This document shows positions 3,179-14,731 of a stretch of 64,000 nucleotides of DNA, piece after piece. A program made the position numbers and the translations under genes. The notes under the pieces are model-generated. The model was not told the DNA's origin and made no database searches. It saw nothing but the letters and a program-made list of their open reading frames with translations. Each line of letters begins with the position of its first letter. Positions within the stretch are counted from its first letter, which is position 1. Source of the stretch: Flavobacterium sp. JAD_PAG50586_2 (lineage in GTDB: Bacteria > Bacteroidota > Bacteroidia > Flavobacteriales > Flavobacteriaceae); the NCBI GenBank assembly GCA_023213215.1, contig CP096136.1, forward strand, positions 558,001 to 622,000. Direction: 5' to 3'.

Positions 3179-4453
3179 ATGGAAGAATATGGGAAAATAT
3201 TATTGATTGCGATGCCCTTTTTCCTTTTGTTGATTTTCATCGAAAGGACTTATGGATATTTCAAAGGCATAAATCATACTCCGGTAATGGACAGTGTTTC
3301 CAGTATAAGCTCCGGAATGACCAATGCAGTAAAGGATGCCTTAGGTTTGAGCATTGCTATTATTTCCTATGAATGGATGGTTTCCCATTTGGCAATTCTG
3401 CATATCGAAGCAACGGTTTTGACTTACATCATTGCCTTTTTCGCCATCGATTTTTATGGGTATTGGGGCCACCGATGGGCACATCAGATCAATTTTTTAT
3501 GGAACAAACATGCCATTCACCATAGCAGCGAAGAGTTCAATCTTGCCTGTGCATTGCGTCAGCCGGTTTCAAGTTTTATCAGCCTGTTTACTTTTCTGTT
3601 ATTGCCTGCTGCTCTTTTGGGAGTTCCTGCTTCGGTAATTGCAATCCTGCTTCCGATACATTTATTTTTACAGTTTTGGTACCATACGAGGTATATCGGC
3701 AAAATGGGCTTTTTAGAAAAGTTCCTCGTAACGCCTTCACATCACAGAGTCCATCACGCTATCAATCCTGAATACATGGATAAAAACCACGGCCAAATAT
3801 TTATTTTCTGGGACAAATGGTTTGGCACTTTTCAGGAAGAATTGGATACTGTTCCGCCTGTTTTTGGAATCACACGTCCGGTCCAAACCTGGAATCCGAT
3901 TCGAATTAATTTCCAACACTTATGGCTTTTGGCCAAAGATGCTTATCGTGCTGAAAATTGGAAAGATAAGGCAACAATCTGGTTTAAACCAACAGGCTGG
4001 CGACCTGCAGCTTTTGACGAAAAATATCCAGTTCATAAAATCAGTGATGTGTATCGCTTTGAGAAATACGGACATCAGCATTCCGATTTATTGAAATATT
4101 GGTCGGTAATTCAACTCTTCGTTACATTAGGACTGATTAGCTACCTATTTGGAAATATCGCAGCAATTGGCCTGCCAAATATTTTCCTCTACGGATTATT
4201 TGTTTTCCTAACCGTTTACAGCTATACCGAATTAATGGATACAAGACGCTTTTCGATTTTTTGGGAAGGTTTGCGGTTTATACTCGCCATCGGAATCCTT
4301 TATTGGTATGGCGATTGGTTCGGAATGTCTTCGCTGCTTCCTTATTCTAATTGGATATTCATTTCCTATTTCCTACTATCTCTATTGATGAATTCGTACT
4401 TCGTTTTTGTCGAGTTTAAAAAAAGCCAAAACACACTTTCTTATGATAACTAG
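3179..4453 (+). CDS. Alkylglycerol monooxygenase-like membrane di-iron hydroxylase (sterol desaturase/fatty acid hydroxylase family)
   Basis: A 424-residue multi-pass membrane protein. The histidine clusters of the fatty-acid hydroxylase superfamily are all visible: HRWAH, HAIHHSSEEFN followed by LACALRQ, and TPSHHRVHH followed by DKNHGQ and WDKWFGTF. These strings resemble animal alkylglycerol monooxygenase (AGMO/TMEM195) more than sterol desaturases, because AGMO has the same HHSSE-x-[FY]-N-L...ALRQ and DKN...WDK-x-FGTF signatures. AGMO hydroxylates the ether carbon of alkylglycerols using a pterin cofactor; the bacterial substrate is inferred only. About 150 further C-terminal residues hold several more hydrophobic segments. 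The next gene, a lysoplasmalogenase homologue, overlaps by 11 bases, suggesting a joint role in ether-lipid turnover. Confidence 0.82.
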   Translation: MEEYGKILLIAMPFFLLLIFIERTYGYFKGINHTPVMDSVSSISSGMTNAVKDALGLSIAIISYEWMVSHLAILHIEATVLTYIIAFFAIDFYGYWGHRWAHQINFLWNKHAIHHSSEEFNLACALRQPVSSFISLFTFLLLPAALLGVPASVIAILLPIHLFLQFWYHTRYIGKMGFLEKFLVTPSHHRVHHAINPEYMDKNHGQIFIFWDKWFGTFQEELDTVPPVFGITRPVQTWNPIRINFQHLWLLAKDAYRAENWKDKATIWFKPTGWRPAAFDEKYPVHKISDVYRFEKYGHQHSDLLKYWSVIQLFVTLGLISYLFGNIAAIGLPNIFLYGLFVFLTVYSYTELMDTRRFSIFWEGLRFILAIGILYWYGDWFGMSSLLPYSNWIFISYFLLSLLMNSYFVFVEFKKSQNTLSYDN

Positions 4454-9892: not shown

Positions 9893-11262
9893 TAGTCGAT
9901 TCCGTATTTGTCAAACAGGTACATTAAGGAAGCCATTGTTGCTGCTCCGAGTTCCAATTCCCTTTTATTCACTGCGTCGAATTTATCATTTGCCGCATGG
10001 TGGTAATCAAAATAACGTTGGGAATCCGGAGATAGTCCGGCTTTAACAATTTTTGTAGAGGTTAGATGGCTAATATCCACACCCGTTCCTCCATTTGTAA
10101 AATTATGAATCAGATAAGGCTCAAACAAATATTTCCATTTGATTGCTTTTTCAAAATTCGCGGCATTGCATTCAAAATTAAAGCCTCTCGGTGTAAATCC
10201 TCCTGAATCACTTTCGAGTGCAAAAATGTGATTTTCCTTATTCTGTTTTGATAACTCCTCGTATTTCTTTCCGCCTCTTCCGCCAGATTCCTCATTCATA
10301 AAAAGCACAGCACGGATAGTGTTTTTGGGCTTGTAATTTAATTTTTTAAATAGCTCCAAAACCTCCATGCTTTGCACTACACCTGCACCATCATCGTGAG
10401 AACCGTCACCTAAATCCCAGGAATCAAGATGGCCGCCAACAATCATTATCTTTTCAGGATGTTCAGAACCCGTGATTTCACCAATTACGTTATAGGAAAG
10501 CACATCATCCAACGTTTCGCATGACATTTTGAAATAGAATTTCAATTTGCTGTTTTCCTTTAGCTTTTTGCTTAGTAATTCCGCTCCATTAGTACTGATT
10601 GCTGCGGTTGGAATGTATTTCTCTTTTGGCAAATCCCCGTAGCTCTGCATTCCGGTATGTGGAAAATCATCCAGCCTGAAACCCATTGAACGGACAATTG
10701 TACCCACTGCTCCCATTTTAGCTGCATCTCTCGCTCCGTAAAACCTTTGGTCCACACAATGCCCATAGGATTGGAAGGCATCGACATTTTCGGCTTCAAA
10801 TGGTCGGTTGTAAAAAACTATTTTACCTTTTATCTTTTCCGCTCCAAGCGTTTCGAGTTCTTTGAGGCTGTGGACTTCGATAACCTCAGCAGTTAACCCA
10901 CTTTTTGCAGTAGCGATTGAGCCGCCAAGTGCACATATCGGAATATTGATTTTAGCTTTATTGTCTAAAATATACGCCGTTTCCTTTTCGCCCCTGACCC
11001 ATTTGGGCACCATAACTTCCTGAAGGTAGACTCTATCCAAACCAAGTGTTTCCAATTGCTGTTTGGTATAAGCTACTCCTTTTTCGGCACCAACAGAACC
11101 CGAGATCCGCTGGCCAATTGTATTAGACAGATAATCTAACCAGGAATAGCATTTAGACTCGGTTAATGAAAATTTGTAGATGTCTTTAAGCATCTTTTCA
11201 TCGTTGTTTTGGGAGTATATTATGGATGTGAATAGCAAAGACAGTAAAGCAATTTTTCTCAT
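9892..11262 (-). CDS. Secreted M28-family zinc metallopeptidase
   Basis: 456 residues with a signal peptide (MRKIALLSLLFTSIIYSQ). A protease-associated-type insert (AEVIEVHSLKELETLGAEKIKGKIVFYNRPF) precedes the M28 catalytic domain. Zinc and catalytic motifs are visible: GGHLDSWD (His/Asp ligand pair), DGAGV (bridging Asp), MNEESGGRGG (general base Glu-Glu), ALESDSGG (Asp ligand) and YHHAANDKFD (C-terminal His ligand). M28 enzymes of this layout are amino- or carboxypeptidases acting in the periplasm or outside the cell; the peptide preference is not readable. The downstream DUF1801 gene overlaps its stop by one base. Confidence 0.92.
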   Translation of the reverse strand: MRKIALLSLLFTSIIYSQNNDEKMLKDIYKFSLTESKCYSWLDYLSNTIGQRISGSVGAEKGVAYTKQQLETLGLDRVYLQEVMVPKWVRGEKETAYILDNKAKINIPICALGGSIATAKSGLTAEVIEVHSLKELETLGAEKIKGKIVFYNRPFEAENVDAFQSYGHCVDQRFYGARDAAKMGAVGTIVRSMGFRLDDFPHTGMQSYGDLPKEKYIPTAAISTNGAELLSKKLKENSKLKFYFKMSCETLDDVLSYNVIGEITGSEHPEKIMIVGGHLDSWDLGDGSHDDGAGVVQSMEVLELFKKLNYKPKNTIRAVLFMNEESGGRGGKKYEELSKQNKENHIFALESDSGGFTPRGFNFECNAANFEKAIKWKYLFEPYLIHNFTNGGTGVDISHLTSTKIVKAGLSPDSQRYFDYHHAANDKFDAVNKRELELGAATMASLMYLFDKYGID

Positions 11263-11296
11263 TTGGTATTTTTTATCAAAAATAATGGAAAAAACA

Positions 11297-11345
11297 TTTG
11301 GTTACAGAAATATTATTTATTTACTTTGCAATTCAAAGCACTTTA
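11297..11345 (+). promoter_or_regulatory. Promoter with overlapping palindromic operator, copy 1
   Basis: TTTG at 11297-11300 and TTACTTTG at 11321-11328 are 20 bases apart, a near-consensus Bacteroidetes promoter. The -7 box overlaps an inverted repeat, CTTTG (11324-11328) N5 CAAAG (11334-11338), and a third half-site CACTTT follows at 11339-11344. The same arrangement occurs in front of the DUF1361-CreD genes at 12368-12390. It is probably the binding site of the winged-helix regulator encoded at 12051; that link is inferred. Confidence 0.6.
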
Positions 11346-11348
11346 ATC

Positions 11349-11681
11349 ATGGAAAACGAAAAATACCTTCAGGACATTTCAGAAATCAGAAACATCATGG
11401 ATAAATCATCACGTTTTATCTCGTTAAGCGGTTTTTCAGGAATTTTAGCCGGAATATATTCTTTGATTGGCGCATGGCTTGCCTACAATACTATCTACTT
11501 TGACACGACAAGTTTAGGAGAATACCGAAATCTCATAATTACGCAACCCATGATTGAAAAGCTGTTCCAAATTGCATTTGGCGTTTTAGCCTTCTCCATA
11601 GTAACTGCTGTAATCTTAAGCGCCAGAAAGGCTAAAAAAGAAATGAAAGCCTTTGGAATCCTACCTCAAAACGACTCTTGA
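11349..11681 (+). CDS. Small two-helix membrane protein of the winged-helix/CreD cluster
   Basis: 110 residues from the ATG at 11349 (MENEKYLQDISEIRNIMDKSSRF). An in-frame ATG at 11298 lies upstream of the promoter -7 box and is therefore rejected. A soluble helical N-terminus of about 22 residues is followed by two transmembrane helices (FSGILAGIYSLIGAWLAYN and IAFGVLAFSIVTAVILSA) and a basic tail. It is the first gene of the cluster and overlaps the next by four bases. No function known; possibly part of a membrane sensor that works with the regulator at 12051. Confidence 0.7.
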   Translation: MENEKYLQDISEIRNIMDKSSRFISLSGFSGILAGIYSLIGAWLAYNTIYFDTTSLGEYRNLIITQPMIEKLFQIAFGVLAFSIVTAVILSARKAKKEMKAFGILPQNDS

Positions 11682-11968
11682 TAAATTTTTTGATTCCTTT
11701 GGTTTCCGGTGGATTTTTCATACTGCTTTTGATAGAAAAAGAAATATTGGGACTTGTAGCTCCACTTACCCTTTTATTTTACGGTTTGGCCTGCATAAAT
11801 GCCAGTAAATATACACTTGGCGATGTTCGTTATTTAGGAATTACTCTTATCTTGTTAGCCTTACTTTCAACCTGGTTTTTGGGATACGGATTACTATTCT
11901 GGGCATTGGGATTTGGCGTATGCCACATTATTTATGGAAGTATGATGTATTTTAAATACGGAGAATAA
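11678..11968 (+). CDS. Small membrane protein, TTG start, coupled to 11349
   Basis: 96 residues starting at TTG 11678, which overlaps the previous TGA stop (TTGA), a typical coupling arrangement. Three or four hydrophobic helices fill the protein (IPLVSGGFFILLLIEKEILG, LTLLFYGLACINASKYTLG, YLGITLILLALLSTWFLGYGLL). The coding start is supported by the overlap and the unbroken hydrophobic pattern. I do not recognise a functional family. Likely partner of the protein encoded just before it. Confidence 0.65.
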   Translation: MINFLIPLVSGGFFILLLIEKEILGLVAPLTLLFYGLACINASKYTLGDVRYLGITLILLALLSTWFLGYGLLFWALGFGVCHIIYGSMMYFKYGE

Positions 11969-12050
11969 TTAAAGTATTTTTATTTAAACCTATTCAACCG
12001 CTGTAAAAACCTGTCCGTTATCAGAAACAATTAGATACCAGTAAATAAAT

Positions 12051-12347
12051 TTGAAAACCATCATCCAAAATATCAACAAAGCTTTTGATCACAGGATCCG
12101 TCTTGGAATCATGTCTGTATTGATGGTGAATGAAAGTGCCGATTTTAATATGCTGAAAGAATTATTGGGCGTTACCGATGGTAATCTTGCGAGCCATACC
12201 AAGGCATTGGAAGCAGAAAGTTATATCATGATTGAAAAGCAGTTCATAGGCAAGAAGCCAAATACAAAATACATTGCAACAACCGCAGGAAAGAAAGCAT
12301 TCCTAGATCATATTGAAGCACTTGAAAAACTAATATCTAAACGTTAA
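12051..12347 (+). CDS. Winged-helix transcriptional regulator (HTH_34-like)
   Basis: 98 residues from a TTG start at 12051, 82 bases after the preceding gene. The whole protein is one winged helix-turn-helix: HRIRLGIMSVLMVNESADF (helix 1), MLKELLGVTDGNLASHTKALEAES (helices 2-3, recognition helix), then the wing EKQFIGKKPNTKYIATTAG. It fits the small PF13601-type regulators of Bacteroidetes, which have no ligand domain of their own. It lies between two membrane-protein genes and the DUF1361-CreD genes and probably controls both through the palindromes at 11324 and 12368. Cytoplasmic. Confidence 0.85.
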   Translation: MKTIIQNINKAFDHRIRLGIMSVLMVNESADFNMLKELLGVTDGNLASHTKALEAESYIMIEKQFIGKKPNTKYIATTAGKKAFLDHIEALEKLISKR

Positions 12348-12367
12348 CCTATTTTTTTATTCATTTG

Positions 12368-12390
12368 CTTTGAAAAACAAAGTACTTTTA
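12368..12390 (+). promoter_or_regulatory. Palindromic operator-like motif, copy 2, before DUF1361-CreD
   Basis: CTTTG (12368-12372) A5 CAAAG (12378-12382) T ACTTTTA (12384-12390). Half-sites, spacing and the third ACTTT half-site match copy 1 at 11324-11344. A TTTG at 12364-12367 could be a -33 element. The motif lies 12 bases before the ATG at 12402, so a bound protein would block transcription of the second half of the cluster. Confidence 0.55.
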
Positions 12391-12401
12391 AATTTAATTT
12401 T

Positions 12402-13058
12402 ATGAACAAAATCCTAACCATCTATTTATTCAACAGGAAACAAAATCCAAATTTGATAATCCTAAGTGTTATCTCAATCCTCTTAATGTTGTTAAGGGTA
12501 AAACTTACCTACAACATGTATTTACTCTTTCTGATATGGAATTTGTTTTTGGGTTATGTTCCCTATTTTATGTCCTCACAACTAAAATCAACTGTTCCCG
12601 GAACTTATAAATTTTATCTCCTTTTGATAGGCTGGTTGCTTTTTATACCCAATTCATTCTATTTGCTGACTGATTTTGTGCACCTGCATCACCATAGCGA
12701 TTTGCAATACATATTCGATGCGTTACTGTTAACTTTCTTTTCCATCGCTGGATTTTATGCCGGAATCTCTTCAATGCTCCATATCCATGGATTATTGGAA
12801 ATGAAATATTCAAGTCAAAAAAGCAAATATGTGATGATTACCCTTTGTTATCTCTCGAGCTTTGGAGTTTATCTGGGTCGGATTCTTCGATTTAACAGTT
12901 GGGATATTGTAAGTAACCCAATAAAGCTTTTTTCTAATATCCTCAGCAGTTTACAACACTTTCAAACTTATGAGTTTGTGACTCTTTTTGGGACTTTTAT
13001 TTTAATAGTCTACTCTATTTCACATCTATTATCTGATAATAAAACAATCAAATCATGA
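12402..13058 (+). CDS. DUF1361 membrane protein
   Basis: 218 residues with about six transmembrane helices. The DUF1361 signature is visible as LLIGWLLFIPNSFYLLTDFVHLHH, with a following glycine-rich helix and a second conserved region, YLSSFGVYLGRILRFNSWDI. The family has no assigned biochemical role. The final ATGA overlaps the next gene's start, and CreD follows, so the three are co-expressed. Confidence 0.85.
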   Translation: MNKILTIYLFNRKQNPNLIILSVISILLMLLRVKLTYNMYLLFLIWNLFLGYVPYFMSSQLKSTVPGTYKFYLLLIGWLLFIPNSFYLLTDFVHLHHHSDLQYIFDALLLTFFSIAGFYAGISSMLHIHGLLEMKYSSQKSKYVMITLCYLSSFGVYLGRILRFNSWDIVSNPIKLFSNILSSLQHFQTYEFVTLFGTFILIVYSISHLLSDNKTIKS

Positions 13059-13360
13059 CAAAACTTGCACTAACGGGTAAATTCTCCACTTATTTAGCCA
13101 TTGCCTCATTTGGAATTGGAACAGCATTCTTATTCCTTCATTTAGTATTTCCTAAGTCAGGCTACATCCTATTTGCAGGCTATTGTTATGTTCTTTTAGC
13201 AATCCTGTTCAATGCCATCACACTGTTGTATTTAAGTTATCAATTCGCAATCCATCGGTTTAACAGAGAAACGATAGCCATACGAATCCTTATCCTTCTA
13301 TCTAATATTCCGGTTGCATTACTGTACTTAAACATCGTATTAAACAATAATTTATTCTAA
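13055..13360 (+). CDS. Small three- or four-helix membrane protein
   Basis: 101 residues; its ATG at 13055 overlaps the DUF1361 TGA stop (ATGA). Hydrophobic segments include IASFGIGTAFLFLHLVF, GYILFAGYCYVLLAILFN and ILILLSNIPVALLYLNIVL. No recognised family motif. It sits between DUF1361 and creD (15-base gap), which implies co-translation and perhaps a shared complex. Confidence 0.7.
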   Translation: MTKLALTGKFSTYLAIASFGIGTAFLFLHLVFPKSGYILFAGYCYVLLAILFNAITLLYLSYQFAIHRFNRETIAIRILILLSNIPVALLYLNIVLNNNLF

Positions 13361-13375
13361 CTAAAAACAATTAAA

Positions 13376-14731
13376 ATGGAAAATTCAGAAAATTCAATTC
13401 CCGAAGTTAAATCATTCCTTCAGTCGAATACCGCCAAAATGATTATGGTGGGATTTCTAACTTTAGTCTTGCTAATACCGTTGTTCTTTGTCCAAGATTT
13501 AATCCGGGAACGCTCTCAGCGAAAGATTCAAATGGTGGATGAAGTAACCGATTTATGGGGAAAGGATATCTTATTTTACGGTCCGGTTCTCAGAATTCCG
13601 TATACAAATTACGAAGCTTATAATGTTACGGATCCAAAAAATGGAGCCACTACCATTCAAAGAAAGGCAATCACAAATTACGCCTATTTCTTTCCAAACG
13701 AACTGAAAAACACGTCCAATATAAAGAAAAACGAATCGCTTAAGCGTGGCATTTTCAATCATGTTGTCTTTACGGCAGACATGAATTTCAAAGGAAATTT
13801 CACCAGTCCGGATTTCGCAAAATTAGGAATTGATGCCGAAAACATCCAATGGGACAAAGCTTCCATCATCGTAAAGACTACTAATCTAAAAAGCATCAAA
13901 AGCGAACTGAAAATTCAATTAAATAATAATAAATTTGCTTTCGAACCACAAAGCAGTGATAAAAGCCAGTACAGCGTTTTGGCCACAGGTAATTTTGATT
14001 ACAAAGCTTTAGTCAGTAATGAGAAGATTAATTTTGATTTTGCAATAACCTATAATGGCAGTAACAGTGTGAAATTCATCCCAATCGGAAAAGTAACCAG
14101 TATTAGTGTAGATTCGGACTGGAAGTCGCCAAGTTTTGAAGGATCATTTGCAGCCAGCGATACCACAAAAACCATTAGCCAAAAAGGTTTTCATGCCGAT
14201 TGGAAAGTATTGGACATTAACAGGACGTTTTCGCAGCAATACGCGATTGTTTTACCTAATCTGGACGATTACCTGTTCGGAGTGAAATTAATTCAAACAG
14301 TGGACGAATATCAACAAAACGAAAGAGCTTCAAAATATGGTTTCCTGGTAATTGGATTAACATTCCTCATTTTCTTCCTGATACAGTCCGTTAGTAAAAT
14401 CAACATTCATATTTTTCAATATTCGATGATTGGCCTGGCTTTGATAATGTTCTACACGCTTTTAATTTCAATTACGGAGCATAGCACTTTCAGTTTTGCG
14501 TACACCATTGCCGGAGCTTCTGTAGTTGCGATGATAACGCTCTACTCTATTTCCATTTTAAAGAATCGAAAGTTTCCTATGTTTATTGGAATCTCGCTAT
14601 CGGCATTGTATACTTTCATTTATATCATCATCCAGATGGAAGATTATGCATTGCTGGTGGGAAGCATTGGCTTGTTTTTAATCTTGGGAGCGGTGATGTA
14701 TTTCTCCAGGAAAATTGATTGGAGCAGATAA
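13376..14731 (+). CDS. creD: CreD-family inner membrane protein
   Basis: 451 residues. One N-terminal helix (MIMVGFLTLVLLIPLFFVQDLI) is followed by the family signature RERSQRKIQMVDEVTDLWG, a large periplasmic domain of about 250 residues (YFFPNELKNTSNI, RGIFNHVVFTADMNFKGNF) and five or six C-terminal helices. This matches E. coli CreD, an envelope-stress protein governed there by the CreBC two-component system. No CreBC homologue is nearby; the winged-helix protein at 12051 is the obvious candidate regulator. A hairpin terminator follows. Confidence 0.93.
   Translation: MENSENSIPEVKSFLQSNTAKMIMVGFLTLVLLIPLFFVQDLIRERSQRKIQMVDEVTDLWGKDILFYGPVLRIPYTNYEAYNVTDPKNGATTIQRKAITNYAYFFPNELKNTSNIKKNESLKRGIFNHVVFTADMNFKGNFTSPDFAKLGIDAENIQWDKASIIVKTTNLKSIKSELKIQLNNNKFAFEPQSSDKSQYSVLATGNFDYKALVSNEKINFDFAITYNGSNSVKFIPIGKVTSISVDSDWKSPSFEGSFAASDTTKTISQKGFHADWKVLDINRTFSQQYAIVLPNLDDYLFGVKLIQTVDEYQQNERASKYGFLVIGLTFLIFFLIQSVSKINIHIFQYSMIGLALIMFYTLLISITEHSTFSFAYTIAGASVVAMITLYSISILKNRKFPMFIGISLSALYTFIYIIIQMEDYALLVGSIGLFLILGAVMYFSRKIDWSR

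Follow-up and report, generated by a model that had tools for sequence, protein, structure and literature searches.

Two copies of a three-arm DNA site, CTTTG-N5-CAAAG-N-ACTTT, lie on either side of the gene for a small winged-helix protein of the HTH_34 family in Flavobacterium sp. JAD_PAG50586_2, and the paired sites together with this protein very probably form a real control circuit. The best explanation of the findings as a whole, and on balance a likely one, is that the HTH_34 protein binds the sites and represses two operons, and that a membrane protein encoded with it relieves the repression. Winged-helix repressors that regulate their own genes are familiar. New here are the three arms of the site, an A-tract kept in fixed register at one of the two copies, and the two-operon layout that extends across the phylum. 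It is unusual for a regulator-operator pair to be kept across a phylum with about two sites in each genome, and the pairing gives the uncharacterised HTH_34 proteins a concrete candidate DNA target. A search of the open-access literature returned no description of the circuit among the matches listed and no matching paper on HTH_34 or PF13601, and text matches to the string CAAAGTACTTT were unrelated by title.

A three-arm motif with two copies in the genome

The window, that is, the whole stretch of 64,000 nucleotides that was analysed, contains two exact copies of the motif, both on the plus strand. Copy 1 (11324-11344; CTTTG CAATT CAAAG C ACTTT) and copy 2 (12368-12388; CTTTG AAAAA CAAAG T ACTTT) are predicted operators on the basis of the scans and of their conservation, before the membrane-protein gene and downstream of the HTH_34 gene, respectively. 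The preliminary description of this DNA had placed copy 2 correctly and had ended copy 1 at 11343, one base short of its true end. It had also noticed the motif nowhere else in the window, and the two copies are indeed the sole exact matches there. When up to three mismatches are allowed, the window has 6 matches (4.6 expected): each of the two sites is counted once per strand, and the other two matches lie at positions with no relation to them. Across the whole genome, a single contig of 3,808,583 bases, the motif is not abundant at unrelated genes: there are 2 matches with at most one mismatch, and both are at the cluster, as copies 1 and 2. The reversed-pattern control likewise has 2 matches at this threshold. 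The number of exact matches expected per genome is 0.015 from base composition and 0.028 from dinucleotides, and about 4e-7 are expected in both intergenic gaps combined.

The site was originally called palindromic, which is accurate for two of its arms and inaccurate for the whole. ACTTTG and CAAAGT are inverted relative to each other, with 10 bases from the start of CTTTG to the start of CAAAG, as first reported; the third arm, ACTTT, is oriented like the first. The two-arm palindrome was ruled out as the full signature, since its core ACTTTG-N5-CAAAGT occurs (at most one mismatch) at 24 places in the genome versus 27 for the control. Because this core is neither rarer nor commoner than its control, specificity resides in the three-arm motif.

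The genes around the two copies are arranged as follows. An M28 peptidase gene lies upstream of copy 1 on the opposite strand. Downstream of copy 1 the membrane-protein gene appears in two parts on the plus strand, orfA (11349-11681; no Pfam match) and, in a different frame, orfB (11678-11968). In seven aligned relatives it is a single open reading frame of 202-209 codons, and the gene in the window is thus frame-shifted or mis-assembled. The regulator gene (12051-12347, plus strand; 98 aa, TTG start) comes next, and the profile match to PF13601 (98.4 bits versus a cut-off of 27) bears out the earlier suggestion that an HTH_34-like protein is encoded between the two copies. Copy 2 begins 20 bases past the HTH_34 stop and is followed on the plus strand by genes for a DUF1361 membrane protein (12402-13058; PF07099, 135 bits) and for the small protein orfC (13055-13360; no Pfam or NCBIfam match), and by creD (13376-14731), which encodes an inner membrane protein (PF06123, 468 bits; NF008712, 452 bits). 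The site therefore does stand in front of both halves of the cluster, with the amendment that copy 1 precedes the membrane-protein gene as well as the HTH_34 gene.

Conservation of the paired sites with the HTH_34 gene

The motif and the regulator gene are found in the same genomes. Among 60 relatives (a count that includes the genome of the window), the exact motif occurs in 26, against 2 matches for the reversed control, and in 20 of these 26 the motif is paired, with the copies about 0.75 to 1.7 kb apart (pairs were tallied by eye). An HTH_34 orthologue (E below 1e-29) is present in 28 of the same 60 genomes, including all 26 with the motif. With at most one mismatch, these 28 loci (the window counted) have site 2 in 28 cases and site 1 in 25; the remaining three first sites keep CTTTG-N5-CAAAGT and have lost the third arm. 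More remote HTH_34 proteins (32-38% identical) have the site at none of the four loci that were read, two other remote matches being left out of the comparison. At these four loci (L095-L098) the HTH_34 gene is also downstream of a gene that encodes a membrane protein about 195 aa long.

The association is also seen at the level of the family. The exact motif occurs in 188 of 397 family genomes (10 matches for the reversed control, totalled by eye) and an HTH_34 orthologue (E below 1e-39) in 189. Both are present in 185 genomes, the HTH_34 orthologue only in 4, the motif only in 3, and neither in 205 (Fisher p 1e-104, in a test that ignores shared ancestry). Twelve genomes with weaker HTH_34 matches (1e-15 to 1e-20) were scored as orthologue-negative, and one of the three motif-only genomes has such a weaker match. 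This near one-to-one co-occurrence supports the central proposal of the preliminary description, an operator common to both halves of the cluster and tied to HTH_34.

The layout was read in the best 80 of 586 stretches that were confirmed; we refer to these as the named loci, and they come from Flavobacterium, Winogradskyella, Maribacter, Aquimarina, Kordia, Tenacibaculum, and others. One site lies before the operon of the membrane-protein and HTH_34 genes, and the other lies downstream of HTH_34, before creD or a DUF4153 gene and their neighbours. Among these best 80 of 586, each of the two sites is present in 79 loci and the pair in 78; the exceptions are L108, without site 1, and L141, without site 2. 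Site 2 is no more than 400 bases from the HTH_34 stop in 72 of the 80, and a wider search gives the figure of 79.

The two-site layout extends to other classes of the phylum. An HTH_34 match (E up to 1e-20) was found in 80 of 198 phylum genomes. Of the 30 best-scoring loci, 29 have site 1 (at most one mismatch) and 25 have site 2 within 400 bases. Fifteen of these best 30 are outside the window's order, ten of them outside its class, and at this threshold site 1 is present in 14 of the 15 and site 2 in 10. At four more of the 15, site 2 retains CTTTG-N5-CAAAGT and its third arm is damaged, and L205 has no recognisable site 2. In other classes (L194, L195, L203, L205, L207, L208 and L209), the first site often has AAAAG for CAAAG, with the rest intact.

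The HTH_34 protein and its membrane-protein partner

The regulator matches the HTH_34 profile (PF13601) over positions 1-80 of 80, above the curated cut-off of 27. Its structure model is a winged helix (pLDDT 92.1), and the modelled fold is that of PadR/MarR-like regulators. The nearest folds, with the C-terminal helix included, are 5h20 (Z 14.3, 1.4 Å over 93 residues), Rv3488 (7wh4; Z 14.1, 2.7 Å over 95) and PH1061/1ub9 (Z 12.9, 1.4 Å over 85); many other chains score above Z 12, and Z differences within 1 count as ties. The top sequence match is also 1ub9 (E 1.2e-6). The protein thus appears to share with these repressors the fold with its C-terminal helix. It differs from them in that its only Pfam match (E up to 0.05) is HTH_34, with no match to a PadR or MarR sequence profile, and in having an operator and partner genes of its own. 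Across the HTH_34 proteins the recognition segment TDGNLASH hardly varies, as would be expected given that the operator hardly varies either.

A membrane-protein gene lies upstream of HTH_34 in all 80 named loci (best 80 of 586). In the model of the protein (pLDDT 81.8), six long helices follow an N-terminal helix, and among the chains compared it has no clear relative (top, TMEM45A; Z 8.1, 4.9 Å over 172 residues).

The pairing resembles that of SdpR and SdpI of Bacillus subtilis, in which a small winged-helix-type regulator is likewise co-encoded with a polytopic membrane protein and SdpR is an autorepressor. SdpR belongs to the ArsR family, which is distinct from HTH_34. The likeness is one of gene pairing: here, unlike there, a second, separate operon has the same operator, and no Pfam family matches the membrane protein. 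SdpI, on ligand, holds SdpR at the membrane, according to an excerpt of PMC1626106. By analogy with SdpR and SdpI, the co-encoded six-helix membrane protein could be the sensor of the circuit, an idea that we hold tentatively and give slightly less than even chances. In the genome studied here the sensor may be broken, because the membrane-protein gene is split.

The putative promoter at copy 1 and the predicted mode of repression

Copy 1 overlaps the -7 box of a putative promoter, as had been proposed. The box, TTACTTTG (11321-11328, plus strand), was matched to the flavobacterial-type consensus TAnnTTTG at -12 to -5, in the form given in a portion of PMC9723704, and a -33-type TTTG element lies upstream (11297-11300, plus strand). 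With CTTTG at the -7 box, the site would cover about -9 to +12. In the loci compared, TTTG is invariant at both sites, and the TA at the consensus offset varies. The conservation of CTTTG is partly the promoter's, because this arm coincides with the -7 box. In the named loci (best 80 of 586), 75 of 79 first sites are followed by an ATG, the first one, that starts 1-5 bases further on.

The HTH_34 protein very probably binds both predicted operators. We suggest that the inverted arms CTTTG-N5-CAAAG are recognised by a dimer, and that the third arm, ACTTT, provides extra contacts or accommodates another dimer. Bound at copy 1, the regulator would cover the start point and the -7 box of the operon that encodes it (the membrane-protein and HTH_34 genes), and at copy 2 the corresponding place before the DUF1361-orfC-creD operon. 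From these positions it would block polymerase at both operators, and would be autoregulatory at its own operon. Repression is the most likely outcome since the bound protein would cover the -7 box and start positions, and we regard it as quite probable that HTH_34 represses both its own operon and the envelope operon. The membrane protein might then sense the state of the envelope and free the operons, for example by retaining the regulator at the membrane.

An A-tract at copy 2

The two sites differ in what lies upstream of them. An A-tract, defined as an A-then-T run of 7 or more with no TpA step, ends 9 bases before copy 2 (ATTTTTTT, 12351-12358, plus strand), and between the two copies in the window only copy 2 has one. 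In the named loci (best 80 of 586), a run of at least 7 that ends at the 10th base before CTTTG is present at 78 of 79 second sites versus 6 of 79 first sites; counting T only, the figures are 73 of 79 and 2 of 79. The same register-locked run is at 28 of 28 second versus 1 of 25 first sites in a further set of loci. Its letters seem less important than the shape of the DNA, because the tract reads TTTTTTT, AAAATTTTTT or AAAAAAATTT in the same register. It belongs to the site and not to the end of the gene, because it is kept at far-downstream second sites: nine named loci (best 80 of 586) have site 2 at 122 to 841 bases beyond the HTH_34 stop, and all have the tract at the same offset (7 T-rich, 2 A-then-T).

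Two ordinary roles for the tract were rejected. It is not an ordinary terminator, since there is no terminator-like hairpin in 11200-12500. Nor is it a common promoter element of the genome: TTTTTTT-N6..14-ACTTTG occurs at 9 places versus 14 for the control, in a scan that covers T7 only and not A-then-T runs, and copy 2 (GCTTTG) is outside the 9.

In the same named loci (best 80 of 586), TTG is found at -33 in 65 of 79 first sites versus 3 of 72 second sites. Because second sites are mostly without it, copy 2 may be something other than an ordinary promoter. Conceivably, copy 2 represents an undescribed Bacteroidota class of promoter-operator, in which the A-tract replaces the -33 element and HTH_34, bound immediately downstream, flips this DNA, bent or with a narrow groove, from silent to active and back. 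If so, one small regulator would serve two differently built promoters, the same two across the phylum. We think this doubtful. L204, among the best 30 phylum loci, has site 2 or its core and no tract, and the extra sites associated with MPAB-like genes in L092 and L093 are also without one.

The same differences raise the question of the sign of regulation. HTH_34 might bind both sites and activate, or act with opposite signs, repressing at copy 1, where the promoter seems to be whole, and activating at copy 2. In favour are the scarcity of the -33 TTG at second sites and the A-tract in its stead, and the first spacer base, mostly T at site 1 and A at site 2, also sets the sites apart. However, CTTTG is at the -7 position in both, where a bound protein is expected to exclude polymerase, and we consider activation at either site unlikely.

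Binding by HTH_34 or by something else

Repression by HTH_34 presupposes that HTH_34 is what binds. A different regulator in the same genomes could bind the motif, with the HTH_34 gene merely one of its targets, and co-occurrence alone can't separate a target from a binder. The HTH_34 gene, however, is the constant partner between the sites, and extra sites with no adjacent HTH_34 gene occur in genomes that carry an orthologue. Known Bacteroidota LexA-like motifs, GGA-N5-TCC and CTAA-N5-TTAG in the part of PMC8565304 that lists them, differ from the motif and are absent from both 21-base sites. We find a different regulator very improbable.

Even less is to be said for a motif that functions with no bound regulator, as a core promoter plus leader or as a leader RNA element. 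CTTTG is the -7 box, and the two other arms would presumably be in the transcribed leader; however, a general promoter element would be common, whereas this motif has two copies per genome, at one gene family, across the phylum. The reading as core promoter only was ruled out on these grounds, namely a frequency of about two per genome and the tie to a single gene. A roadblock at copy 2, in which polymerase stalled by bound HTH_34 releases its RNA at a U-tract, is just as improbable, because the A7T3 forms of the tract would give no U-rich RNA.

Candidate target genes and additional sites

On the same strand downstream of HTH_34, the named loci (best 80 of 586) have genes for DUF1361 (54), Coq4-like (52), CreD (51), relatives of orfC (50), DUF4153 (21), MPAB-like (6) and XrtN-system VIT (3) proteins; these counts are from our own cluster profiles and are of neighbours, not established operon members, and some loci are incomplete at an edge. 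creD alone is present in 51, DUF4153 alone in 21, both in 0 and neither in 8. That each replaces the other at the locus suggests that creD and DUF4153 share a function. CreD is needed for envelope integrity in Stenotrophomonas maltophilia (as reported in the abstract of PMC4689548), in keeping with an envelope theme. The predicted switch would link creD with DUF1361, DUF4153 and Coq4-like genes, and in a few loci with exosortase-N genes.

creD is known from control by CreBC, and the present circuit would place it under a different switch in Bacteroidota. As in the CreBC system of Proteobacteria, the predicted targets include the gene for this inner membrane protein. Unlike in that system, the regulator encoded nearby has a single domain, HTH_34, and is not a two-component pair. 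The cre/blr tag TTCAC-N6-TTCAC has 0 matches in the window with at most one mismatch, where 5.1 are expected by chance; by this sequence test, the predicted circuit is not CreBC control.

Some relatives have extra sites elsewhere, before a cluster of C92-peptidase and Coq4-like genes, before XrtN-system genes or before MPAB-like genes, and the genomes with such sites also carry an HTH_34 orthologue. In L092 and L093, single extra sites (at 3564 and 3587, respectively) precede genes for MPAB-like oxygenases (PF09995). L094 has an extra copy at 3374 (locus reversed), away from HTH_34 and before genes for an XrtN-system VIT protein and exosortase N, families named through relatives in L072. L089, L090 and L091 have second two-site clusters without HTH_34, in which a C92 peptidase gene lies between the sites and Coq4-like and orfC-like genes follow; the second site of these clusters is CAAAGAACTTT.
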